A DNA stretch of 64,000 nucleotides from a virus. The position numbers and the translations under genes are program-made. Below are positions 3,042 to 22,656 of the stretch, piece after piece. The notes beneath the pieces are model-generated. The model was not told the DNA's origin and searched no databases. It saw only the letters and a program-made list of their open reading frames with translations. Within the stretch, counting starts at the first letter, position 1, and each line of letters starts with the position of its first letter. The stretch lies in the IMG/VR virus record IMGVR_UViG_3300046820_002180, positions 1 through 64,000 of that record; one strand, written 5' to 3'.

Positions 3042-4871
3042 ATGGCAAAAGAAATATCATACGCAACAAGAGATTTTGCAGGTTTAAGAGACGAATTAGT
3101 TTCATTAACTAAAAAGTATTATCCAGAATTAATAAGTAACTTTAACGATGCATCAATTTATTCAGTATTACTTGATTTAAATGCTGCGGTTGCTGATAAC
3201 TTACATTTCCATATAGATAGAGTTTGGCAGGAAACGATGTTGGACTTTGCACAACAAAGACAATCATTATTTCATATTGCAAAAACTTATGGTATCAGAC
3301 TACCTGGTTTAAGACCATCAGTTGCATTATGTGACTTCTCAATTAACGTTCCTGTTAGAGGTGATAAAGATGACGAAAGATATGAGGGTATTCTAAAAGC
3401 AGGGGCTCAAGTTTCAGGTGGAGGACAAATATTTGAAACTCTTGAGGATATTGATTTTTCAAATCCTTTCAATAGTAAAGGTGAACCTAATAGATTAAAG
3501 ATTCCAAATTTTGATAACAATAGTAAATTAATATCATATACAATCACCAAAAGAGAGGCGGTTGTAAATGGAACAACTAAGATTTATAGAAGAGTTATTA
3601 ACGAGGTTGACCAAAAACCATTCTTAAAACTATACCTACCTGAGAAAAACGTTTTGGGTGTTGTTAGTGTAATCCATAAATCAGGAACAAACTATGCTAG
3701 TAACCCTACATATGATGAATTCACAAACGGAAATAAATGGTATGAAGTTAAATCATTAATGGAAGATAGAGTTTTTATTGAGGACGCAACTACCATTTCA
3801 GATACAGATAATTTTAAATCCGGTGACTACCTTAGAGTTGATAATAAATTTATTACTGAGTATACACCTGAAGGTTATTTCAGTGTTACTTTCGGTTCAG
3901 GAAATGTAGACCCAATGGATAATTTGGATAACTATATGAACGGAACTATGAAAGTTAATATAGCAACTTTCCTTAATAATAACTCATTGGGTAACATACC
4001 AAGAGCAAATACCACATTATTCATCAAATATCGTATTGGTGGTGGTAAAGAATCAAATCTTGGGGTTAATGTAATAACATCAATAGATACAATTGATTTT
4101 GCATTAAATGGTCCAAATTCAACAATAAATGACCAAGTATATCAATCATTAAGAGTTACAAATATAACACCTGCAGTGGGTGGTGCTGATTCACCGACCA
4201 TAGAGGAAATTAGAAATATGGTTGCATATAACTTTGCAGCACAAAATAGAGCGGTAACATTAAATGACTATAAATCTTTAATTGAAACGATGCCATCAAC
4301 TTATGGAGCACCTGCTAAGGTTAGTGTGATGGAAGAAGACAACAAAGTGAGAATTAAATTATTATCGTACGATAGTGAAGGTAATTTAACGGATATTGTA
4401 TCTAACACACTTAAGAATAACGTATTGAACTATTTGTCTAAATTTAGAATGTTAAATGATTTCTTAGACATTATGAGTGGTGAAGTTATCGATTTAGGGT
4501 TGGAGGTTGATTTGGTTGTAAATAAAAACGAAAGTCAAAGTGACGTACTAAAAGAAACTGTTAATACTGTAACAAACTTCTTTGCTATCGACAAAAGAAA
4601 AATGGGTGACCCATTATTTGTTGGTGATTTGATGAGAGAAATAGGTAATGTAACAGGAGTTGTGAACGTTGTGGATGTTAGAGTATTCAACAAAATCGGT
4701 GGGAAATATTCATCAGCCGAAATATCTCAAGCTTACAAGGATAATATTACAAAAGAAATATTACAATTCGATTCGACCATATATATGAAATCAAATCAAA
4801 TTTGTCAAATTCGATTCCCACAAAGTGATATTAAAGTCAGAGTAAAAACTTTAACTTCGGCTACATATTAA
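3042..4871 (+). CDS. gp6: Baseplate wedge protein, T4 gp6-like (baseplate J family)
   Basis: 609 residues, near the 660 of T4 gp6. The N-terminus (ATRDFAGLRDELV, then a DASIYSVLLDLNAAVAD segment and a helical region with WQETMLDFAQQRQSLF) is typical of the gp6/gpJ-like wedge protein that forms the iris-like ring of the baseplate. The segment around residues 380-430 (GGADSPTIEEIRNMVAYNFA, then AQNRAVTLNDYKSLIETMPS) matches the conserved baseplate J core. Position directly after gp25 and before a gp7-sized gene supports the call. It starts with no recognisable Shine-Dalgarno, only an A-rich leader. Confidence 0.92.
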   Translation: MAKEISYATRDFAGLRDELVSLTKKYYPELISNFNDASIYSVLLDLNAAVADNLHFHIDRVWQETMLDFAQQRQSLFHIAKTYGIRLPGLRPSVALCDFSINVPVRGDKDDERYEGILKAGAQVSGGGQIFETLEDIDFSNPFNSKGEPNRLKIPNFDNNSKLISYTITKREAVVNGTTKIYRRVINEVDQKPFLKLYLPEKNVLGVVSVIHKSGTNYASNPTYDEFTNGNKWYEVKSLMEDRVFIEDATTISDTDNFKSGDYLRVDNKFITEYTPEGYFSVTFGSGNVDPMDNLDNYMNGTMKVNIATFLNNNSLGNIPRANTTLFIKYRIGGGKESNLGVNVITSIDTIDFALNGPNSTINDQVYQSLRVTNITPAVGGADSPTIEEIRNMVAYNFAAQNRAVTLNDYKSLIETMPSTYGAPAKVSVMEEDNKVRIKLLSYDSEGNLTDIVSNTLKNNVLNYLSKFRMLNDFLDIMSGEVIDLGLEVDLVVNKNESQSDVLKETVNTVTNFFAIDKRKMGDPLFVGDLMREIGNVTGVVNVVDVRVFNKIGGKYSSAEISQAYKDNITKEILQFDSTIYMKSNQICQIRFPQSDIKVRVKTLTSATY

Positions 4872-12240: not shown

Positions 12241-13149
12241 ATGGCAGTAGGAAGTTACGGAACTATAAGACCTGCGGATGTTTCACCGGCCGATGTTGAT
12301 ATATATTATCACTTCGTTTCGGGTAGAACCGCTAGTACAGAAGTTCAATTTGAGAAGATAGATAACTCACAAGATATATTAACACCTGTATTCCACAATG
12401 ATTCAACAGGTGGTAATTCAGGTACTGAACTATTGGGTGGTATGTATAACCTAAAACTAGAATCATCAAGATTCTCTGAGTTGGGTATATATACATTATA
12501 CTTGAGACCAAAACAAATCAGAACAGTTGTTTCTGATTGTGGTGTATTGTCATCATTACCATCGGTTAGAGGATTGATTATTGACATTTCCCAAATCGAC
12601 GCTGGCGACACTAACAAATTTACACCCCAAGGTTTAGTAGGTTACCGAGTTGAGTACTTGGATGATTCAGGTGCTAAGATTCCTAATTTTTTTAGAATTG
12701 TTACCTCATCTTTTTACTGTGAACCAGTGTTATCGAATTTAACAAATTCATCACAAAAAGCAATTAGATACAGATATTCTGATATAACAACAAACTTAAT
12801 GTTTTTGACATTAACACCAAGCTCTTCACCGTCTAGTAGACCTAATACCATACCATTTATTGGTCAACCAAATCAAAATATCATTCTAACAAATACACAT
12901 TTTAATCCTGTTATGTTAGAAGTTGAAATGGTAGAACACGATGCAACAACATTGGCACACGCACTTTACGGTAATCAAAGTAAGTCGGTTGTTGATGGAA
13001 TTTACACGATTTATGACCAAAATAATAATATCTATAAGCAGTTTAACTTATACGAAATTAAAGACGATATTAACGAGACACTATACGAAATAAGAGAGAA
13101 GAATGATAATATCGACGAAACATTAAATTTTGATGTTATAACTCAATAA
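12241..13149 (+). CDS. Virion structural protein upstream of the giant adhesin gene
   Basis: 302 residues of unknown family. The N-terminal half is beta-rich ([16 protein letters not shown], then [12 protein letters not shown]). The C-terminal 40 residues are charged and probably helical ([20 protein letters not shown], then [12 protein letters not shown]), suitable for coiled-coil assembly with a partner. The stop overlaps the start of the 2137-residue protein (TAATG), so the two are likely produced together and may form one substructure. The start is supported by an A-rich leader and a TATTTATA element. Confidence 0.55.
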
Positions 13150-16100
13150 TGGCTAAAATAACAAGAAAGGTCCCATATCAGGCGGCTAGTGGTGGTGAAA
13201 CGTTCAATGACAAGCTCATCGGTTTACAAATAACTGATGGTTCTAGTCAATTGGCCAATACCCAATTCCTTATTGATAGAGTAATTCCTGAAAAAGACAG
13301 TAAGACTTTTCACACACAACCATTTTCTGATTTCCTTACTTTAGATACATTAAAAGAAGAAACGAATTCAATTTATGATAATAACTCTACAGGTATTAAT
13401 TTACCTGATAGAAGTAAAAAAATTAAATTTCATAATTCTAAAAACGATGCGTCAAAATCTTTATTTGGTTCCTTATCAACAAGATTAAATGGTGCGGTTG
13501 GGAATATCATCGAAAGTTTTCCTGCCGCGTTATTGGTTGACGTCGACTCACCAGTTTCATCAACTAATGTTAGTGCGGTATTAACGGGTGCAACTCTCGG
13601 GTACGACCCAATTTCAAACACCACACAATTCCAATTTAAAAAATCTTTAATTTACAATCCATTTGATATTGTTATTCAAAGACCTCAAGGGGTTGAAGTT
13701 TTACAATCAACTAATTCATATAGAGATTTTTATTCATCATATACAAAATATGTGGTGGATAACCTCAGTGGTTCAACATATGAAATCGTTTCATACGAAG
13801 AACCTGATAATGATGGTTTTATTACATTAAAAGTAAAAGGATATTGTTTCGGTGGATATTCAATCTACACTGATAACTTTTTAATTAGACCAAATAATGG
13901 TGTAACTGAAGAATTCTTCAATAGTCTTGATGAATTAGAAACCGTATTATTAGATAGAGAATCAACACCCAAATATACCGCAGCATTTAGAATACCGACA
14001 GATTTATATGATGGAGCAGTCACAGAATTACAAAGTGAATTTGCAACTTGGCCATTAAGTCGAGATGGGTGGAACATACAAATAGTTGGTCTTGATTACG
14101 AATCATACGTTTCCGAATTAAGTAATATAGGTAATATTGTTGACGATTATAAATCAAACTTAATCATTAGATTTATGACGTCACCGCAACTTTATGAATT
14201 CGATACTGAAGGAAAAAAGGCGGAGGCAATCTTCCAACTTTATGGACAGAGTTTCGATAAGGTAAAGAAGTTTATTGACAATATTGCGTTTATGAGAAAT
14301 GTTAGCTATGATAAAGCTAACAACGTACCTGACGTATTGTTAAAAAATTTAGCGGAAACATTAGGTCTATCAACAGTCAATCTTTATGATGAAAAGTCAT
14401 TAGAAGAAACTCTTTATACAAGACATACTTCACAATACGAAGGACTTAATATAGGTGCTAATTTATTAGAGGGTGAGTATGAATTTTACAGAAGATTAAT
14501 TGTAAACCTTGCACAATTATATAAATCAAAAGGTACAAGATTAGCGATTGAATTCTTTTTAAAATTCATCGGTGCTCCTGAACCTATGATAAGGTTGGAT
14601 GAATACATCTATCGAGTTGATAGTTTACTACCAAAGGCCACATATGAAAATGATATTAGAGATGTAATCAATGGAGTAAAAGAATTTCAACACGTTGAGT
14701 TTGTACCATTTGCACAAACAATTGATGGTGTTGATTACAATGCATACACTTATAGATTGGTGACCACATCTGGTTCAACCGTACTATCAAGAAGTCAATA
14801 CCCTGTAACAACTGATGGATTACCGAGAGGATTGGAAAGTTCCGATGGTTCATTGTATTTTGCAATGGGTGCCGGTTGGTATAGAAAAACATTAGACCAC
14901 AGGTCTGGTGATATCTTAGACGTTGAAAATTCAGTACTTACGGGTAATACTAAAGTTCTTAAAACAAAATCAAAACCATTTACATATGGTGAAGATTATT
15001 TTAATAACTACAGAAAATTACCTGGTTTAGATTATGGTTACGATTTAAACATCGAAATTGATAATAGAAAAACTGAAGTATTAGATGACGATGGTAATTT
15101 TACATATAAATTAAACAGAAAAAATATTAATATTTTCTTAGATGGTTCAAGAGCAATCGATTATGACATCTATAGAAAAAGTAGAAACTTAACGTTGACT
15201 TTTGGTACTTTACCACCACAGGAAAGACCATCATTCGCCGAGTTTTTAAAAGAAGCGGTTAGTCAAGTAATTAGAAATTCAAGTACAATTAAGTACAAGA
15301 AAGAATACAGACTATTAAAACAAGTCTATGAATCGTATGTAAATAGCGTTTCATTTACACCGTACAATTACATTAAAATAAATGAATTTATTCAAAGAAT
15401 GAGTCCATATTGGGTTAATGTAATTGACCAATTCGTTCCTGCAACGACCCAATGGTTGGGAGGTAACTTAATAGAAAACGGAATATTCGGTAGGTCTAAA
15501 TTCCAATACAAACAACCTTGTACACCAAAAGAATTTGTTGAGGTATTATATCCTGATTTCGAAACTGTAATTGAGGAAGACTTAGAAACAATTTTAGGTG
15601 GAGGGACTACATCATATGAAAACGCATCCAATGAAGATAGTCTAAGAGGATTATTTTCATTTAGCGGTTTAACATATACAATTTATTTAAACATAAATGG
15701 TAATATCTATTCAGGAACAAGTTCAAACTTACGTTCAGAGCTTTTCTCAGGATACACACCAACGGTTAGATGTACTTCATTAACTCAAACATCTTTATCT
15801 GTTCCATTAATTTGTGATTACAAAAATTGGATTAATTTAAATTTACCATTAATTAAAAACAAATGGAAAGAAACATTAACAAATTTAGTACAAACAATTA
15901 ATAGTCAAATAACTCAAGACAACTATGGTTGTATTGATGATTATGCACCATACACGGCAAAGACACAAACAGCGAATTGTTCTCAAATTTATAAAAAGAC
16001 ACTTTCGTTAGAATATTTCTTAGATATTGATGGTGTTGAAAAGGTAAGATTTACATTAGATACTACCGATTGTAGAAACGGTGAAGATATTGATTTTTAT

Positions 16101-19100
16101 TTTGAACCGAATTATGGTTTAGATAAAGACGAATGTAATTTAAGAGTTGAATTGTCAGGACCGGCAATACCATATCAAGGAGTTACAAAAAATTGTCAAT
16201 TAGTTGAAGACGTATACATAACTGTTACAGGAGTAACAACAGGTGTTGAAAATAATGGTATTTGGGATTTAAACATATACGTTACAAGTGGAACAACTTG
16301 TAACTCGGGTGTATGTACTGATTGTGATTTTATTGAAATCAATGACCCTAAACCAATTAAGAGAGCAATATATGCTGACGATTTACAGTTAGTTACTTGT
16401 ACATATATCATCCCTAATGTTAAAGAAACAGACGTATATGATATTATTGTTTCCGACGCCGCAAACTGTGAACAAAAATTTAGAATTGAAGGATTACAAC
16501 AAAAGATAGTTAAAATTTCTGATGAAGTAAGTGGTTATACTATAAATCCAAAAGTTCAATACAAAACATCTTTCGATTATGGTATAAAGAAAGGGACCGA
16601 AATTTACAAATATATTTCAGGGTCAGTTCCAACAACTTGGCAAGGACTACAAAGTACTCTATCATCTGGTGGAGTTGTTGAGACATCAATCGAAGATATT
16701 GAAATAGGTGACACGATTTTAAGTATAAGTCAAAAAGATTGTAATTTACTTCCAACGGAAATGTTTAAGTTCGTTGAGAGTAACGGTTATCAATTTACCT
16801 TTGATTATTCATTAATAAAAGTAGTAAGAAAAGAATGTTTAAGTTCAATTAAGAAAGATGTTATTAATGGTGAGTTTGAAGTGTTACCAACAAGTAAAGT
16901 TTTGGTATACACTAACATTAATGAATACTTAGAAACTGTTCCATATCATTTTACATACAAATATCCTGAAGATTTATTTGTAAGACCTGAACAACCTGAA
17001 GTACCTTGTTGTGAATATCCTGAAGGACATTTTCAGAGTGGAGACTTTATGATAAGTCAATACGGTTTTCCTATTGAGGTAACAAGTGTTGATTTAAATT
17101 ATTGTAATAGAGGAATTTACTACACATTAGTAACATCAGGAACTTCAATCAATTCAGATACAATCTTATTTAATGGACCTTCAAGTGGTATTAATAGAAT
17201 TGTTGTGTCAACTAAAAATGATTCAGCATTCATTAGTCCATTTACAGGAAATAAATTTGAGTGTTTAGATATTGATACTCAACAATATTATTTAGGTTAT
17301 GAATGTGATAACGTACCGAGTGTTGAAAGTTTATTAAGATTAACAGGTTGTACCGATGGTAATTGTACTCAAGTACAGGCAGGACCAAATACACAAAGGT
17401 CATATATTGCTGAAGATACTACACCAACACCAACACCTAGTCCAACTCCAACTCCTACACCGACCCCTACAGGTACACCTACACCTACACCTACACCGAC
17501 ATCAACACCTACACCGACTAGTACTCCCACACCTACCGCAACAGGTACACCTACACCAACACCAACAATTACCCCAACACCTACCGCAACAGGTACACCT
17601 ACACCAACACCAACAATTACCCCAACACCTACCGCAACAGGTACACCTACACCAACACCAACAATTACCCCAACACCTACCGCAACAGGTACACCTACAC
17701 CAACACCAACAATTACCCCAACTCCTGTTTGTAACTTTAATGTGGGTGTAATTTTAGTATCGTCAACCCCAACTCCAACACCTACATCAACATCAACACC
17801 AACACCAACGCCTGTTTGTGACTTTAATGTAGGGGTTACTATTATAGCTTCAACACCGACTCCAACACCTACATCTACACCGACCCCAACTCCAACACCT
17901 GTTTGTGATTTTAACATAGGTGTTAACATTATTGCATCAACTCCAACTCCTACACCAACACCTACGAGTACTCCAACTCCTACCCCAACACCAACACCTA
18001 CACCGGTTTGTGATTTCGGTATTGGAGTGATAGTTATTGCATCTACACCAACTCCAACACCTACACCAACACCAACTAACACACCTACCAGTACTCCTAC
18101 GCCAACTCCGACACCTACACCAACTCCGGTTTGTGAATTTGGAATTGGAGTAACGATTATTGCATCTACACCAACACCAACACCCACTCCAACTAGTACA
18201 CCAACTAGTACTCCTACCAATACACCAACTGTAACTCCAACACCTACACCGGTTTGTGAATTTGGAATTGGAACAATTATTATCGCATCAACTCCAACAC
18301 CTACACCTACTAGCACACCAACACCGACAGCGACTGCTACACCAACACCAACTGCAACTGCAACTCCGACATCAACACCAACTAGTACACCAACTAGCAC
18401 ACCGACACCAACGGCAACTCCAATATGTGAATTTGGAATTGGAACAATTATTATCGCGTCAACACCGACTCCTACACCTACTAGCACACCGACTAATACA
18501 CCAACGCCAACACCTACAAGTACACCTACACCAACTGCCACAGGTACACCTACACCTACACCAACTAGTACACCAACTAGTACACCAACTAGTACACCAA
18601 CTAGTACGCCAACACCAACTGCAACTCCGGTTTGTGAATTTGGAATTGGGGTGATAGTTATTGCATCAACTCCAACACCTACACCTACAAGTACACCTAC
18701 ACCAACTGCAACTCCAACCGCAACTCCAACATCAACACCAGTACCACCTACAGAAACTCCTACACCTACACCAACAAGTACACCAACACCAACAAGTACA
18801 CCAACACCAACAGCTACAGCAACTCCAACGCCAACTGCAACTCCAATATGTGAATTTGGAATTGGTGTGGTAGTTATTGCTTCGACCCCAACACCGACCC
18901 CAACTAATACACCAACTAGCACACCGACCCCAACGCCGACTAATACACCAATACCAACTGACACTCCAACACCGACACCTACTAATACACCAATACCAAC
19001 CGACACACCAACGCCAACACCAACTAACACACCTACTAATACACCAATACCAACCGACACACCAACGCCAACACCAACTAACACACCTACGCCAACACCA

Positions 19101-19562
19101 ACTAACACACCTACCCCTACACCAACAGAGACCCCAACACCTTGTGTGGCGACTATTACTAATACAAGTAACCCAACAAGTTGTGGATTTAACGCTGACG
19201 GTTCATTAACATTAAATGGTTCAGGTGGGGTTGGTCCGTACACGTATTATTTATATGAGGACACAACATTCCCTTATGAAACATCGGGAGGTAGTGTTTA
19301 TCCTGGATTCCCTGTAACTAACCAAACAGGTGGTTACAATGTAACAGGATTAGTACCTGGTGGATATTACTTAAGAATTGTAGATGCGAACGGATGTGAA
19401 GACTTTAGTGAAGTTGTGGTATTACCATATGACGACACTACTTGTGTGACCCCACCACCAACAACATATTTCTGTAAAGAAAATGAAATGAGTCCTTGTC
19501 TTGAACAAGTAAGTCCTTGTACCGGAAGCCAAATAGTTTGTACACAATTTGAACAAGTTTAA
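13149..19562 (+). CDS. Giant baseplate/adhesin protein: tail-protein-I-like part, Pro-Thr stalk, SprB-like tip
   Basis: 2137 residues, the largest protein here. Residues about 330-490 resemble phage tail protein I (P2 gpI type), including [19 protein letters not shown] (about 456-474), a family that links baseplate to fibres. Residues about 800-1420 are beta-rich with many Cys. About 1424-1997 is almost pure Pro-Thr repeat interrupted by nine near-identical short modules of the form [VI]C-x-F-x-[IV]G-x4-[AS]S (first [13 protein letters not shown], last [13 protein letters not shown]). About 2000-2094 matches a SprB-type repeat ([19 protein letters not shown], then [20 protein letters not shown]), known from Bacteroidota surface adhesins. 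A Cys-rich tail ends the protein. It reads as a baseplate-anchored rod with an adhesive end. The intact frame across 1.7 kb of repeats argues against assembly artefact. Confidence 0.8.
17419..19142 (+). repeat. Pro-Thr coding low-complexity region with nine Cys modules
   Basis: About 1.7 kb dominated by ACA/CCN codons giving TPTPT, TSTPT, TATPT and TNTPT runs. Nine interspersed 13-residue modules each carry one Cys. Modules drift gradually along the protein (first three VC-N/D-F-N, later VCEFGIG or ICEFGIG), the pattern expected from tandem duplication followed by divergence. Codon choice for Thr and Pro varies between units, so the repeat is older at DNA level than the 48-bp block inside it. 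Confidence 0.9.
17529..17721 (+). repeat. 48-bp perfect tandem repeat, about four copies
   Basis: Units begin ACAGGTACACCTACACC at 17541, 17589, 17637 and 17685 (last copy truncated), each encoding [16 protein letters not shown] in register. Perfect identity implies recent expansion. A near-copy occurs in another gene at 25060-25113. Confidence 0.9.
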
Positions 19563-19590
19563 GCCTTTAGAATTATAATAAAAAATAAGA

Positions 19591-19598
19591 TATTTATA
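19591..19598 (+). promoter_or_regulatory. TATTTATA element before the Hint gene
   Basis: TATTTATA 21 nt before the ATG at 19620, in the 57-nt gap after the giant adhesin gene. Confidence 0.5.
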
Positions 19599-19619
19599 TA
19601 AAACAAAACAAGCGCTAAA

Positions 19620-20123
19620 ATGAAAAATAATCAAAAAGGATGTTTAATCCAAGGAACATTAATCTCAATGGCTGACGGAACTTCAAAATTAATTGAAGAA
19701 GTTGTTGTTGGTGATGAAGTTAAATCAATTAAATTAAATCAAGAAGCTGGAGTATTTGAAGAAGTTGTAGGTACTGTTGTTGAATTACAACAAGCTGAAA
19801 CTGAATTAGTATACTCAATAAACAATGGTTTAATCGTTGCATCTGAAGACCATAAACATATTGTTAGACAAAAAACACCAGAAGGTGATGCGTACACTGA
19901 AAGATGGATTGTATGTGACACTACTTTTGTTGTTGCTGATGATAAAATGATGGGTGCGGATGGTATTGAAATTGAAGTAACGGATAAAGAAGAGGTTACA
20001 GGAACTAAAACAGTTCATAACTTAGTGATAGAAAACCATAACACATTTATTGCAAATGGTGTTATAACCTATAACGAGATTTTACCTGAGGTAACGGAAG
20101 AAGAAACTCCGGCAGGAGAGTAA
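19620..20123 (+). CDS. Stand-alone Hint (hedgehog/intein-type) domain protein
   Basis: 167 residues, nearly all Hint domain. N-terminal block: C8 in GCLIQGTLISMADG, followed by IEEVVVGDEV (residues 25-34). Block B: S75-E-D-H78 in the place of the usual TxxH. C-terminal block: VHNLVIENHNTFIANGVITY ending at Asn152. The flanks are tiny: seven residues before C8 and fifteen acidic residues after Asn152. The residue after Asn152 is Glu, not Cys/Ser/Thr, and the penultimate His is Tyr151, so normal splicing is unlikely; it looks closer to bacterial intein-like (BIL) or hedgehog-style domains that cleave or transfer to a nucleophile. Thioester chemistry at C8 looks possible. It sits between the giant adhesin and Pro-Thr fibre proteins, so tail-protein processing or attachment is a reasonable inference, untested. 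Confidence 0.85.
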   Translation: MKNNQKGCLIQGTLISMADGTSKLIEEVVVGDEVKSIKLNQEAGVFEEVVGTVVELQQAETELVYSINNGLIVASEDHKHIVRQKTPEGDAYTERWIVCDTTFVVADDKMMGADGIEIEVTDKEEVTGTKTVHNLVIENHNTFIANGVITYNEILPEVTEEETPAGE

Positions 20124-20141: not shown

Positions 20142-20828
20142 ATGTTAGCAAGATTTTATTTATCAGGACCATTTTCAGCATCGACATTGTCTGATAATTT
20201 TACAATAGTGGGTAACCCTGGTAATTACATAACCACGGGTGTAACAAAGTCACAAATGCAATATCCTTCATATAAAGAGATTGTATTTCTCGATTCAGTG
20301 ACAGGAGGTACAGTTACCGCAGTTGGTGGTACTTGTAACGGAACATCAGTAAATTGGTCCGTGATTCAAGCAACCCCAACCCCAACACCAACACCAACTC
20401 CAACACAAACACAAGGAGATGGATTATGTTACAGTTATGAAGTTAGTGATACTGTAAATCAAAATAATTATGGTGTAAGATATACTGACCCTAACGTTGG
20501 TACAAGTCAAGATGTTAAATTTAATATGTTACCGGGAGATGATGGTAATAGTTTTACAACATTCAACATATGTAGTACTGTTGACCCAACATTACTTGAT
20601 TACACAGGAGGTTCTCCTACTGGTGTTGGTTCGGTACCTGGTGTGGCACGTTTTGGTGGTCTTACTCCTTGTGAATCATCTTTTGATTGTACCACACCAC
20701 CAGCAACTGAATACTGTTATGTGAACGGACAATCTGTAGTAGTGGGACCTTTCTCTACATTACAAGAATGTCAAGCAGCTGCAGGTTCTTTTGTATGTAA
20801 CCAATGTGTTGGTACTCCACAACCTTAA
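20142..20828 (+). CDS. Cys-rich modular tail protein with short Pro-Thr linker
   Basis: 228 residues. Small beta-rich N-terminal domain (LARFYLSGPFSASTLSDNFT at residues 2-21), a [14 protein letters not shown] linker (about 80-93), then a Cys-containing domain (GLCYSYEVSD onward) and a final Cys-rich knot with FSTLQECQAAAG and VCNQCVG. No signal peptide or membrane segment. It starts the group of linker-built proteins after the Hint gene and ends at a strong terminator. Probable virion surface component; family unknown. Confidence 0.6.
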   Translation: MLARFYLSGPFSASTLSDNFTIVGNPGNYITTGVTKSQMQYPSYKEIVFLDSVTGGTVTAVGGTCNGTSVNWSVIQATPTPTPTPTPTQTQGDGLCYSYEVSDTVNQNNYGVRYTDPNVGTSQDVKFNMLPGDDGNSFTTFNICSTVDPTLLDYTGGSPTGVGSVPGVARFGGLTPCESSFDCTTPPATEYCYVNGQSVVVGPFSTLQECQAAAGSFVCNQCVGTPQP

Positions 20829-20853
20829 AAGTATAATTAAAATTTATAAAATT

Positions 20854-20881
20854 AAACCCCTTTATTTTAAGGGGTTTTTTT
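20854..20881 (+). terminator. Intrinsic terminator
   Basis: AAACCCCTT / AAGGGGTTT, nine pairs, 6-nt loop, followed by a seven-base T run. It rules out the longer upstream reading of the next gene. Confidence 0.92.
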
Positions 20882-20913
20882 ATGGTTTATTTTTAATAAA
20901 AAAAAGGATATAC

Positions 20914-20921
20914 TATTTATG
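20914..20921 (+). promoter_or_regulatory. TATTTATG element before modular fibre gene
   Basis: Ends 4 nt before the ATG at 20926 and lies just after a terminator, so the transcript start must be very near the start codon. Confidence 0.55.
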
Positions 20922-20925
20922 TATT

Positions 20926-22656
20926 ATGGGATTAGTAATTAGACTGCACGACATTGTATCACCTAGTGTGAGCGGGTTTACCGTTTCATATAAAGAAGGT
21001 AGTTCACCATACCCAATGAATAGTGGGTATATCACATATGCAGATTTTCCATCAGGAACATCCACAGTTAATATTAGTGGAGTAACATTAAATTTTAATA
21101 GTAATTATTGGGTTAAAATTACCGATAAATTTACAGGTAGATATATTATTGAGAATATTGAGACGAATGACCCAATTGCTTATATGGACTGTTGTCCTCA
21201 ACCAGTTGGTTTAGGGGCAGTTTGTTATCATAGTTGTTACCCACCAACAATTAATAGTATTACTTGTGTTGGATTGGTACCACCGACAGCAACTCCGACT
21301 CCGACTCCGACTCCGACTCCGACTCCTACACCAACAGCAACTGTAATAGGACCAACCGCCACCCCAACTCCAACTCCTACAAGTACCCCCACACCAACAC
21401 CGACACCAACAGAAACAGGTGATAGTTGCTTGTGTTATTGCGTCACTTATGATGTGAATGATTTACCAAATGACTTATATGTTAGATACTCTGTTTGTGG
21501 AACTGCGAGTGTTGAAACAGAATTAATTTCTGCAATAGAAAGTATGGATAATGGTGATGGAACCACAACTGCGTGTATTTGTGTGAAACAAGGTGGGGCA
21601 TATTCAACACCGGTATGTGTACAGGGAGGTCTTGAAATACTTTGTCCTGAGGGAGTTACTTGGTCAATGGGTAGTAGTTGTACATCATCCGCCACTTGTT
21701 TTATAGTGAGTGACCCTACACCAACAGCAACCCCAACTCCAACCCCTACACCTACAGCAACCCCAACACCTTATTATTTATTATTAAGTCGTTGTGATTC
21801 TGCACCAAATACAGTAACAGGATGGACTATGAATGCGTACACACAATCACAAATAATGGTTGGCGATATATTCTATTCTGCTGGACAATATTATTATCAA
21901 GTGATTAATTATCAAACAGCACAACCAAATCCTGCAGGTATTATAGATGGTACTAAGTCAAATGATTACACATCTTGCGACCAAACACCCGGACATTATG
22001 TTGCACCAACACCTGACCCAGGACAATCAATATTAATTCATATAGGACAAACATTTAGTAACACAACCCAACCTTGTGCAATGTATGAATCTGCAATTGC
22101 AACCAATAGTGCTACGGTATACTTAAATGGACATAACATACCGGTTAATGGTGATTATGCATATAACACCGCCGCTTGTAATGTTGGTGATGAATATAGT
22201 GGTAACTCTAATTACTATGCTGCACTTGCTAATAGTACTAGATATACATTTACAATTGGAAGTGGGGGATATATTAATAACGTTACAGCTTGTGGAGCAA
22301 TACCAACAGCAACTGCGACTCCTACACCAACTCCTACCCCGACCTCTATACCATTAGTTGGATTGTTTAAGTCACAAGGATTGTTAGAATTTAATAGTCA
22401 TTGTGGTAATAACTATTTAATCAATAGTCCATTCTATGGTGAAACAACTTCAATTAATAGTTTATACGGAACATACGTATATTCAGACACAAACTACACA
22501 CCACTTGATGGTGAAAGTAAATGGTATGCGGTAGGTAGTGATGACCAAGCGAATACTTCAGATTTACCATACTACTCAGTACAAATTGCGGGTAATGGCG
22601 AAGTAACAAGTGTTCAATACATAACAAGCTGTTCTGGTGGAGGAAGTCAGGCATAA
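20926..22656 (+). CDS. Modular Cys-rich fibre protein with three Pro-Thr linkers
   Basis: 576 residues. An in-frame extension to 20791 exists but would read through the terminator, so MGLVIRLHDIV at 20926 is chosen. Order: beta-sandwich head (1-95), Cys-rich segment, PT linker (about 117-164), Cys-rich domain (CLCYCVTYDVND), PT linker (about 263-284), a domain starting YYLLLSRCDSAP, a domain around SILIHIGQTFSNTTQPC, PT linker (about 459-474), then a C-terminal domain with FNSHCGNNYL, GTYVYSD, SKWYAVG and GEVTSVQYITSC. That last domain recurs in two other fibre genes. Likely a beads-on-a-string receptor-binding or decoration protein. Confidence 0.7.
   Translation: MGLVIRLHDIVSPSVSGFTVSYKEGSSPYPMNSGYITYADFPSGTSTVNISGVTLNFNSNYWVKITDKFTGRYIIENIETNDPIAYMDCCPQPVGLGAVCYHSCYPPTINSITCVGLVPPTATPTPTPTPTPTPTPTATVIGPTATPTPTPTSTPTPTPTPTETGDSCLCYCVTYDVNDLPNDLYVRYSVCGTASVETELISAIESMDNGDGTTTACICVKQGGAYSTPVCVQGGLEILCPEGVTWSMGSSCTSSATCFIVSDPTPTATPTPTPTPTATPTPYYLLLSRCDSAPNTVTGWTMNAYTQSQIMVGDIFYSAGQYYYQVINYQTAQPNPAGIIDGTKSNDYTSCDQTPGHYVAPTPDPGQSILIHIGQTFSNTTQPCAMYESAIATNSATVYLNGHNIPVNGDYAYNTAACNVGDEYSGNSNYYAALANSTRYTFTIGSGGYINNVTACGAIPTATATPTPTPTPTSIPLVGLFKSQGLLEFNSHCGNNYLINSPFYGETTSINSLYGTYVYSDTNYTPLDGESKWYAVGSDDQANTSDLPYYSVQIAGNGEVTSVQYITSCSGGGSQA

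Follow-up and report, generated by a model that had tools for sequence, protein, structure and literature searches.

In Hint domains, the cysteine at position 1 (Cys1) and the block-B histidine together allow a thioester to form at the preceding residue, and the terminal asparagine can cyclize, usually aided by a penultimate histidine (PMC4031507, PMC7664689, PMC5874633). When there is no nucleophile at the +1 position, mostly cleavage is expected, with some ligation to free amines, or else transfer to another nucleophile (PMC4031507, PMC7664689, PMC5874633). Type A BIL domains are defined by a C-terminal His-Asn (PMC4031507). The BIL2 domain of Tetrahymena has been reported to form an isopeptide bond by which a ubiquitin-like domain is conjugated to lysines (PMC8616854). 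In the literature that we searched on stand-alone Hint domains, tail-fiber Hint domains, and intein-like virion proteins, we found only phage inteins of terminase, nicotinamide phosphoribosyltransferase, and helicase, together with reviews of BIL domains. The literature searched held no account of a role for Hint or BIL domains in phage tail-fiber-like proteins.

We analyzed a stretch of 64,000 nucleotides (the window) taken from a virus record of 159,820 bases. The ORF at 19620-20123 encodes a complete Hint domain (Table 1). A preliminary description of this DNA had counted seven residues before Cys8 and 15 after Asn152, with Glu at the +1 position and Tyr at the penultimate position, and had noted that Cys8, an SxxH motif (S75-x-x-H78), and Asn152 are present; all of this can be read directly from the ORF translation. 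The chain runs from a heptapeptide through C8, S75-E-D-H78, and Y151-N152 to a tail that begins with E153, so that the +1 and penultimate positions are Glu153 and Tyr151. In an alignment of 34 Hint sequences, C8, G12, T13, A18, D19, G20, and H78 are invariant and N152 is nearly so; the window protein deviates from this alignment at T75, which is Ser, and at the penultimate His, which is Tyr. A penultimate Tyr is rare, not unique: the terminase inteins of L007-L009, in which a terminase domain was found, end YN-C. In L007 (3981-5057), L008, and L009, the terminase ORF begins inside the intein, and the N-terminal intein half was not seen in the two ORFs immediately upstream; this is possibly a natural split intein. 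A hit in L004 from a scan for the YN-E pattern was rejected as a chance match. Searches with P0001 and PF13403 found no second Hint elsewhere in the 159,820-base record, and close homologs of the window Hint were not found in the bacterial genomes searched.

Table 1. Coordinates of the Hint gene, its parts, and adjoining features in the window
Feature	Position	Strand	Comparison
Free-standing Hint (BIL-like) protein, 167 aa	19620..20123	+	Same place in L001, L002
N-terminal flank MKNNQKG, 7 residues ahead of Cys8	19620..19640	+	2 of 7 residues differ in L001
Cys8, Hint position-1 nucleophile; opens block A CLxxGTxxxMADG	19641..19643	+	Invariant in 34 Hint sequences
Block B, S75-E-D-H78	19842..19853	+	Nearly all relatives TxxH; H78 invariant, T75 replaced by Ser here
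Block G, Tyr151-Asn152	20070..20075	+	HN in relatives
C-terminal flank EILPEVTEEETPAGE, 15 residues	20076..20120	+	Versus L001: 0 nonsynonymous, 4 synonymous changes
Preceding 2137-aa tail protein with long Thr-Pro repeat	13149..19562	+	
Next gene, 228 aa: small N-terminal domain, Thr-Pro repeat, variable Cys-rich C-terminus	20142..20828	+	
AGATATTTATATAA, late-promoter-like motif preceding the Hint gene	19588..19601	+	

The fold and the motifs of blocks A, B, F, and G place the window protein in the Hint superfamily, an assignment that stands well clear of chance. When the PDB was searched with phmmer, BIL2 (6tmm, 6y75) matched residues 3-151 with an E value of 1.4e-6, and tblastn matched Vibrio phage genes, mostly annotated as DNA helicase, over 89% of the length (E 5e-5). 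AlphaFold2 supplied with the 34-sequence Hint alignment yielded a model with a mean pLDDT of 86.5 and a pTM of 0.79, with low-confidence stretches at residues 1-4 and 157-164. This model was used instead of one built from three sequences, which had a pLDDT of 49.8. Foldseek with the predicted model returned BIL2 first (E 8e-11) and a Clostridium thermocellum BIL domain second (E 8.6e-9), followed by inteins and hedgehog. Pfam Hint models matched the window protein only at scores under their curated cut-offs. The polymorphic-toxin model PT-HINT (PF07591) gave no match in the window protein, which does not show the combination of model match and toxin partner that marks that group.

The window protein is not a normal intein, as had been proposed, since it has no +1 nucleophile and its relatives lie in non-conserved tail-fiber proteins. 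Homology to class 1 inteins (the Vibrio phage helicase Hints) is detectable across the entire domain. Unlike these inteins, which carry Cys, Ser, or Thr at +1 and lie between two exteins of a conserved host protein, the window protein has Glu153 in three of three members, and its flanks of 7 and 15 residues leave nothing to be rejoined. Because the +1 nucleophile and the penultimate His are absent, classical splicing by this protein is impossible. The suggestion that it is BIL-like is supported: among solved structures, BIL domains come nearest in both sequence and fold. The strict definition of type A does not apply. Like type A BIL domains (e.g., C. thermocellum 2lwy), the window Hint combines Cys1 and a terminal Asn without an obligatory +1 nucleophile, and its surroundings are variable and non-conserved. 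Type A BIL domains, however, end in His-Asn and sit between flanking domains of variable proteins, whereas the window protein ends in Tyr151-Asn152 and is free-standing in a variable neighborhood, with no flanking protein. BIL2, from the BUBL1 locus of Tetrahymena thermophila, is likewise a Cys1-type Hint with a terminal Asn; ubiquitin-like domains flank it, and its penultimate residue is His (the aligned end reads ...NGVLAH), whereas the window protein is nearly devoid of flanks and ends in YN-E. Phage tail-fiber Hints (L184, L238, L247, L261, L181, and BN7874_132 and BN7874_136 of phage NCTB) also have a short tail and lie in tail-fiber clusters, and those included in our tree share a clade with the window Hint. 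These fused Hints have an N-terminal part of 60 to more than 1000 residues, Gly- or Pro-rich linkers, and an HN end, whereas the window protein has none of these and no fiber-like N-terminal fusion partner. It fits best as a free-standing variant within the phage tail-fiber Hint group.

The preliminary description had also placed the gene inside the tail locus, next to Cys-bearing Pro-Thr proteins, and both points are borne out. A baseplate wedge protein is encoded upstream at 3042-4871 (PHROG 219, E 1e-19), and the Hint-bearing relatives are parts of fiber-like proteins. Downstream of the baseplate wedge gene follow, in order, large proteins, the 2137-aa protein, the Hint ORF, four Cys-containing Thr-Pro-repeat proteins, and a 728-aa protein (25947). 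No match to the tail proteins encoded on either side was found in the named phages searched. Fusion of the Hint to the 2137-aa gene by readthrough or frameshifting was ruled out by two in-frame stops in the window and by the differing frames in L001. With at most one mismatch, AGATATTTATATAA is found directly 5' of the 20142-family gene in L074, L083-L087, L099, L105, and others, but in the window and two close relatives it precedes the Hint gene instead. This placement makes the Hint gene the first cistron ahead of the 20142-family gene in the window clade.

Several further features of the tail genes were observed. By eye, an AT-rich, TATTTAT-like motif lies shortly 5' of many tail-gene starts (2585, 4925, 20926, 24797, 25947, 28173) and is possibly the late promoter of the window phage. 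Between the window (20142-22656) and L010/L026, whose Hint is 99% identical, the Thr-Pro-repeat proteins share N-terminal domains and have unrelated C-terminal parts. The breaks between shared and unrelated parts fall near the Thr-Pro repeats, and C-terminal modules turn up in more than one gene; the repeats resemble joints at which adhesin-like modules are exchanged. The 2137-aa protein itself contains a conserved Hint-like region at 16578-17183 (residues ~1144-1345), with Gly at the Cys1 position (YGxxxGT ... GDxLLS ... GDFLINQxGFPIEV ... IxFNG) and a nearly invariant terminal Asn-Gly. This region matches the C-terminal half of the Hint profile (hhalign probability 84%, E 7e-6) and occurs in many related phages.

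A scan with the downstream 728-aa protein returned 80 related loci, and 50 virus records were then searched for the Hint. Strong full-length matches in these records were confined to the window's two close relatives and L074. In L074, the Hint lies within a 311-aa homolog of the window gene at 20142, between two Cys-rich repeats; L105 has the same two repeats joined by SGGGSGR and represents the Hint-less, empty allele of this arrangement. In a wider scan of viral contigs, the nearest Hints were located at the C-terminus of fiber-like proteins, with short tails: L238 ends ...THNPAEKLPGFES, the collagen-like L247 ends ...THNRKLSQFE, and L184 ends ...THNKKPIQ. The related Hints form the C-terminus or an inner segment of collagen-like, Pro-rich, or PASTA fiber-like proteins, and members of the tail-fiber Hint clade end in HN followed by a non-nucleophilic residue, often with only a short tail beyond it. 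Across environmental phages, Hint/BIL domains at the ends of or within tail-fiber-like proteins proved to be common. In L261/L265, a Thr/Ser-Pro-repeat tail protein leads through a poly-Gly stretch into the Hint, after which 11 residues follow; the N-terminal part of these proteins may be related to the 2137-aa protein of the window, judging from a weak profile match (hhalign probability 60%, E 9e-5).

In our tree, the window clade groups with L247, L074, L184/L244/L257, and L238/L242/L243 with a support of 0.96. The larger clade has a support of 0.88; the window clade sits on a long branch, and the inner nodes are low (0.49-0.68). The free-standing Hint may have arisen by fission or by insertion of a ready-made Hint cistron. 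On this long branch, the catalytic residues C8, H78, and N152 are retained at ~30% identity to the nearest fused relatives.

We then compared the window protein with free-standing Hints elsewhere. Among 70 complete Hint ORFs retrieved by the block-A pattern, none is as small as the window protein; the shortest have 228 and 234 aa, with 69-74 residues ahead of Cys1. BFVD contains other viral models of this fold, of 128-172 aa. Phage NCTB (L315, LT598654, 96419-103678) has three Hint-bearing genes in one tail-fiber locus, one of them Hint-only. This gene, BN7874_135 (153 aa, annotated "intein domain protein"), adjoins the two fused Hint genes; where the literature searched names NCTB, it speaks only of inteins in terminase or of inteins as selfish elements. 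BN7874_135 resembles the window protein in being a Hint-only protein of ~150 aa whose gene is flanked by tail-fiber genes. It keeps HN and lacks both Cys1 and the block-B His, whereas in the window protein Cys1, His, and Asn are all present and the penultimate residue is Tyr. Given what BN7874_135 lacks, such ORFs can persist without N-side chemistry. In a separate family of ~500-aa ORFs (L109, L110, L111, L112), a Hint-like C-terminal domain lacks Cys1, keeps the block-A MADG, and ends in EHN followed by Cys-rich tails; the N-terminal part of this family may be ATP-grasp-like, and L109 gave no Pfam match.

The window Hint could likewise be catalytically idle, a structural or chaperone-like tail protein in which the fold has been reused for binding. 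The NCTB Hint and the conserved, Cys1-less Hint-like region of the 2137-aa protein, which has Gly at the Cys1 position and aligns with the C-terminal half of the domain, make this a strong rival, and it agrees with the loss of the penultimate His and the conservation of the tail in the window protein. However, C8, H78, and N152 have all been retained despite divergence to ~30% identity, and we regard idleness as a serious but somewhat unlikely explanation.

The close relatives allowed us to examine selection on the gene. It occupies the same place in two further contigs, L001 (87% identical) and L002 (99%). The preliminary description had called for a check of C8 and N152 in close relatives, and both contigs keep C8, H78, Y151, N152, E153, and the entire 15-residue tail; the loss of C8 that it had named as a refutation is thus not seen. 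The Hint gene has a dN/dS of ~0.21, and its frame is open in each of the two relatives; for neighboring conserved tail genes the ratio is 0.04-0.07. The Hint gene is under purifying selection that is weaker than on these neighbors and far from neutral. Since the free-standing form is represented by only two effective lineages (~87% and ~99% identity), constraint on the catalytic residues is statistically inseparable from constraint on the fold. Compared with L001, the C-terminal 41 residues, a segment made up of blocks F and G plus the 15-residue tail, differ by 7 synonymous changes and 0 nonsynonymous ones, and the remainder by 18 and 21, respectively (Fisher p 0.011, with the cut at residue 127 picked post hoc after the data had been seen). 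The absence of nonsynonymous change in this segment makes it unlikely that the tail is waste. The N-terminal flank, with two of its seven residues changed in L001, is less constrained than the C-terminal end.

These data bear on whether the gene is a functionless, decaying remnant of a mobile Hint insertion. Its sporadic presence (two close relatives and L074 in 50 records), the empty allele in L105, and the lost penultimate His all fit decay, but the dN/dS of 0.21 with a frame open in both relatives, the unchanged last 41 residues, and the conserved promoter-like motif of its own render it very improbable. The conserved tail together with the catalytic residues could instead indicate an active, autocleaving BIL that cuts at Gly7-Cys8 and/or Asn152-Glu153 and whose functional product is the released short peptide; cleavage at either end has been reported for BIL domains (PMC4031507, PMC5874633). 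However, such a peptide has no known role, the penultimate position is Tyr, and the tails of the fused relatives are unlike that of the window protein, so we consider this improbable.

We favor a different reading, to which we give about an even chance of being correct: the window protein is a BIL-type tail-fiber Hint that is now, or has always been, a separate late gene and that acts as a small tail component with the 20142 product. In the fused relatives, the Hint would serve as a single-turnover autoprocessing domain that forms a thioester at the residue preceding Cys1, after which it cleaves the fiber part or passes it to a nucleophile. The window protein would have lost this payload and could at most process itself. 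With C8, S75, and H78 kept, N-terminal thioester chemistry is possible, judging from sequence. The likeliest chemistry left would be an N-to-S acyl shift at Gly7-Cys8, by which only the heptapeptide would be lost or transferred, and self-processing appears more plausible there than at Asn152-Glu153. Cleavage at the C-terminal end probably proceeds slowly or not at all, given the Tyr in place of the penultimate His and a tail whose conservation looks like that of a retained segment. The mature protein would then associate with the phage tail as a small component and act by way of its folded domain and acidic C-terminal tail. Retention and conservation of this C-terminal tail point to a small role, in structure or docking, alongside the product of the neighboring 20142 gene; this gene, whose product is the presumptive partner, is tied to the Hint in two different arrangements. 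We infer both this assembly role and this partner from gene order alone.

The preliminary description had raised the idea of covalent fiber attachment, in which the protein would be a trans-acting acyl-transfer element that joins tail proteins. In favor of this idea, BIL2, which heads both the sequence and the fold matches, is reported to attach a ubiquitin-like domain to lysines (PMC8616854). Known Hint reactions, however, target the protein's own flanks, the N-terminal flank here has only seven residues, and no stand-alone trans-acting Hint was found in the literature searched; we consider such an element highly unlikely. An N-terminal part of seven residues also leaves no fiber for the Hint to attach in cis. 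That an activated Gly7-Cys8 junction or the Cys would covalently link the Hint or its heptapeptide to a Thr-Pro-repeat fiber protein during tail assembly is, in our estimation, a very long shot.

The window protein, with its near-intact catalytic residues, and the Hint-containing and Hint-less alleles of its neighbor gene together form a small, expressible test case for the question of whether Hint domains process or crosslink phage fibers or are plain structural modules. If the protein did act in trans, it would represent a Hint-based protein ligation device that is separate from its substrate.
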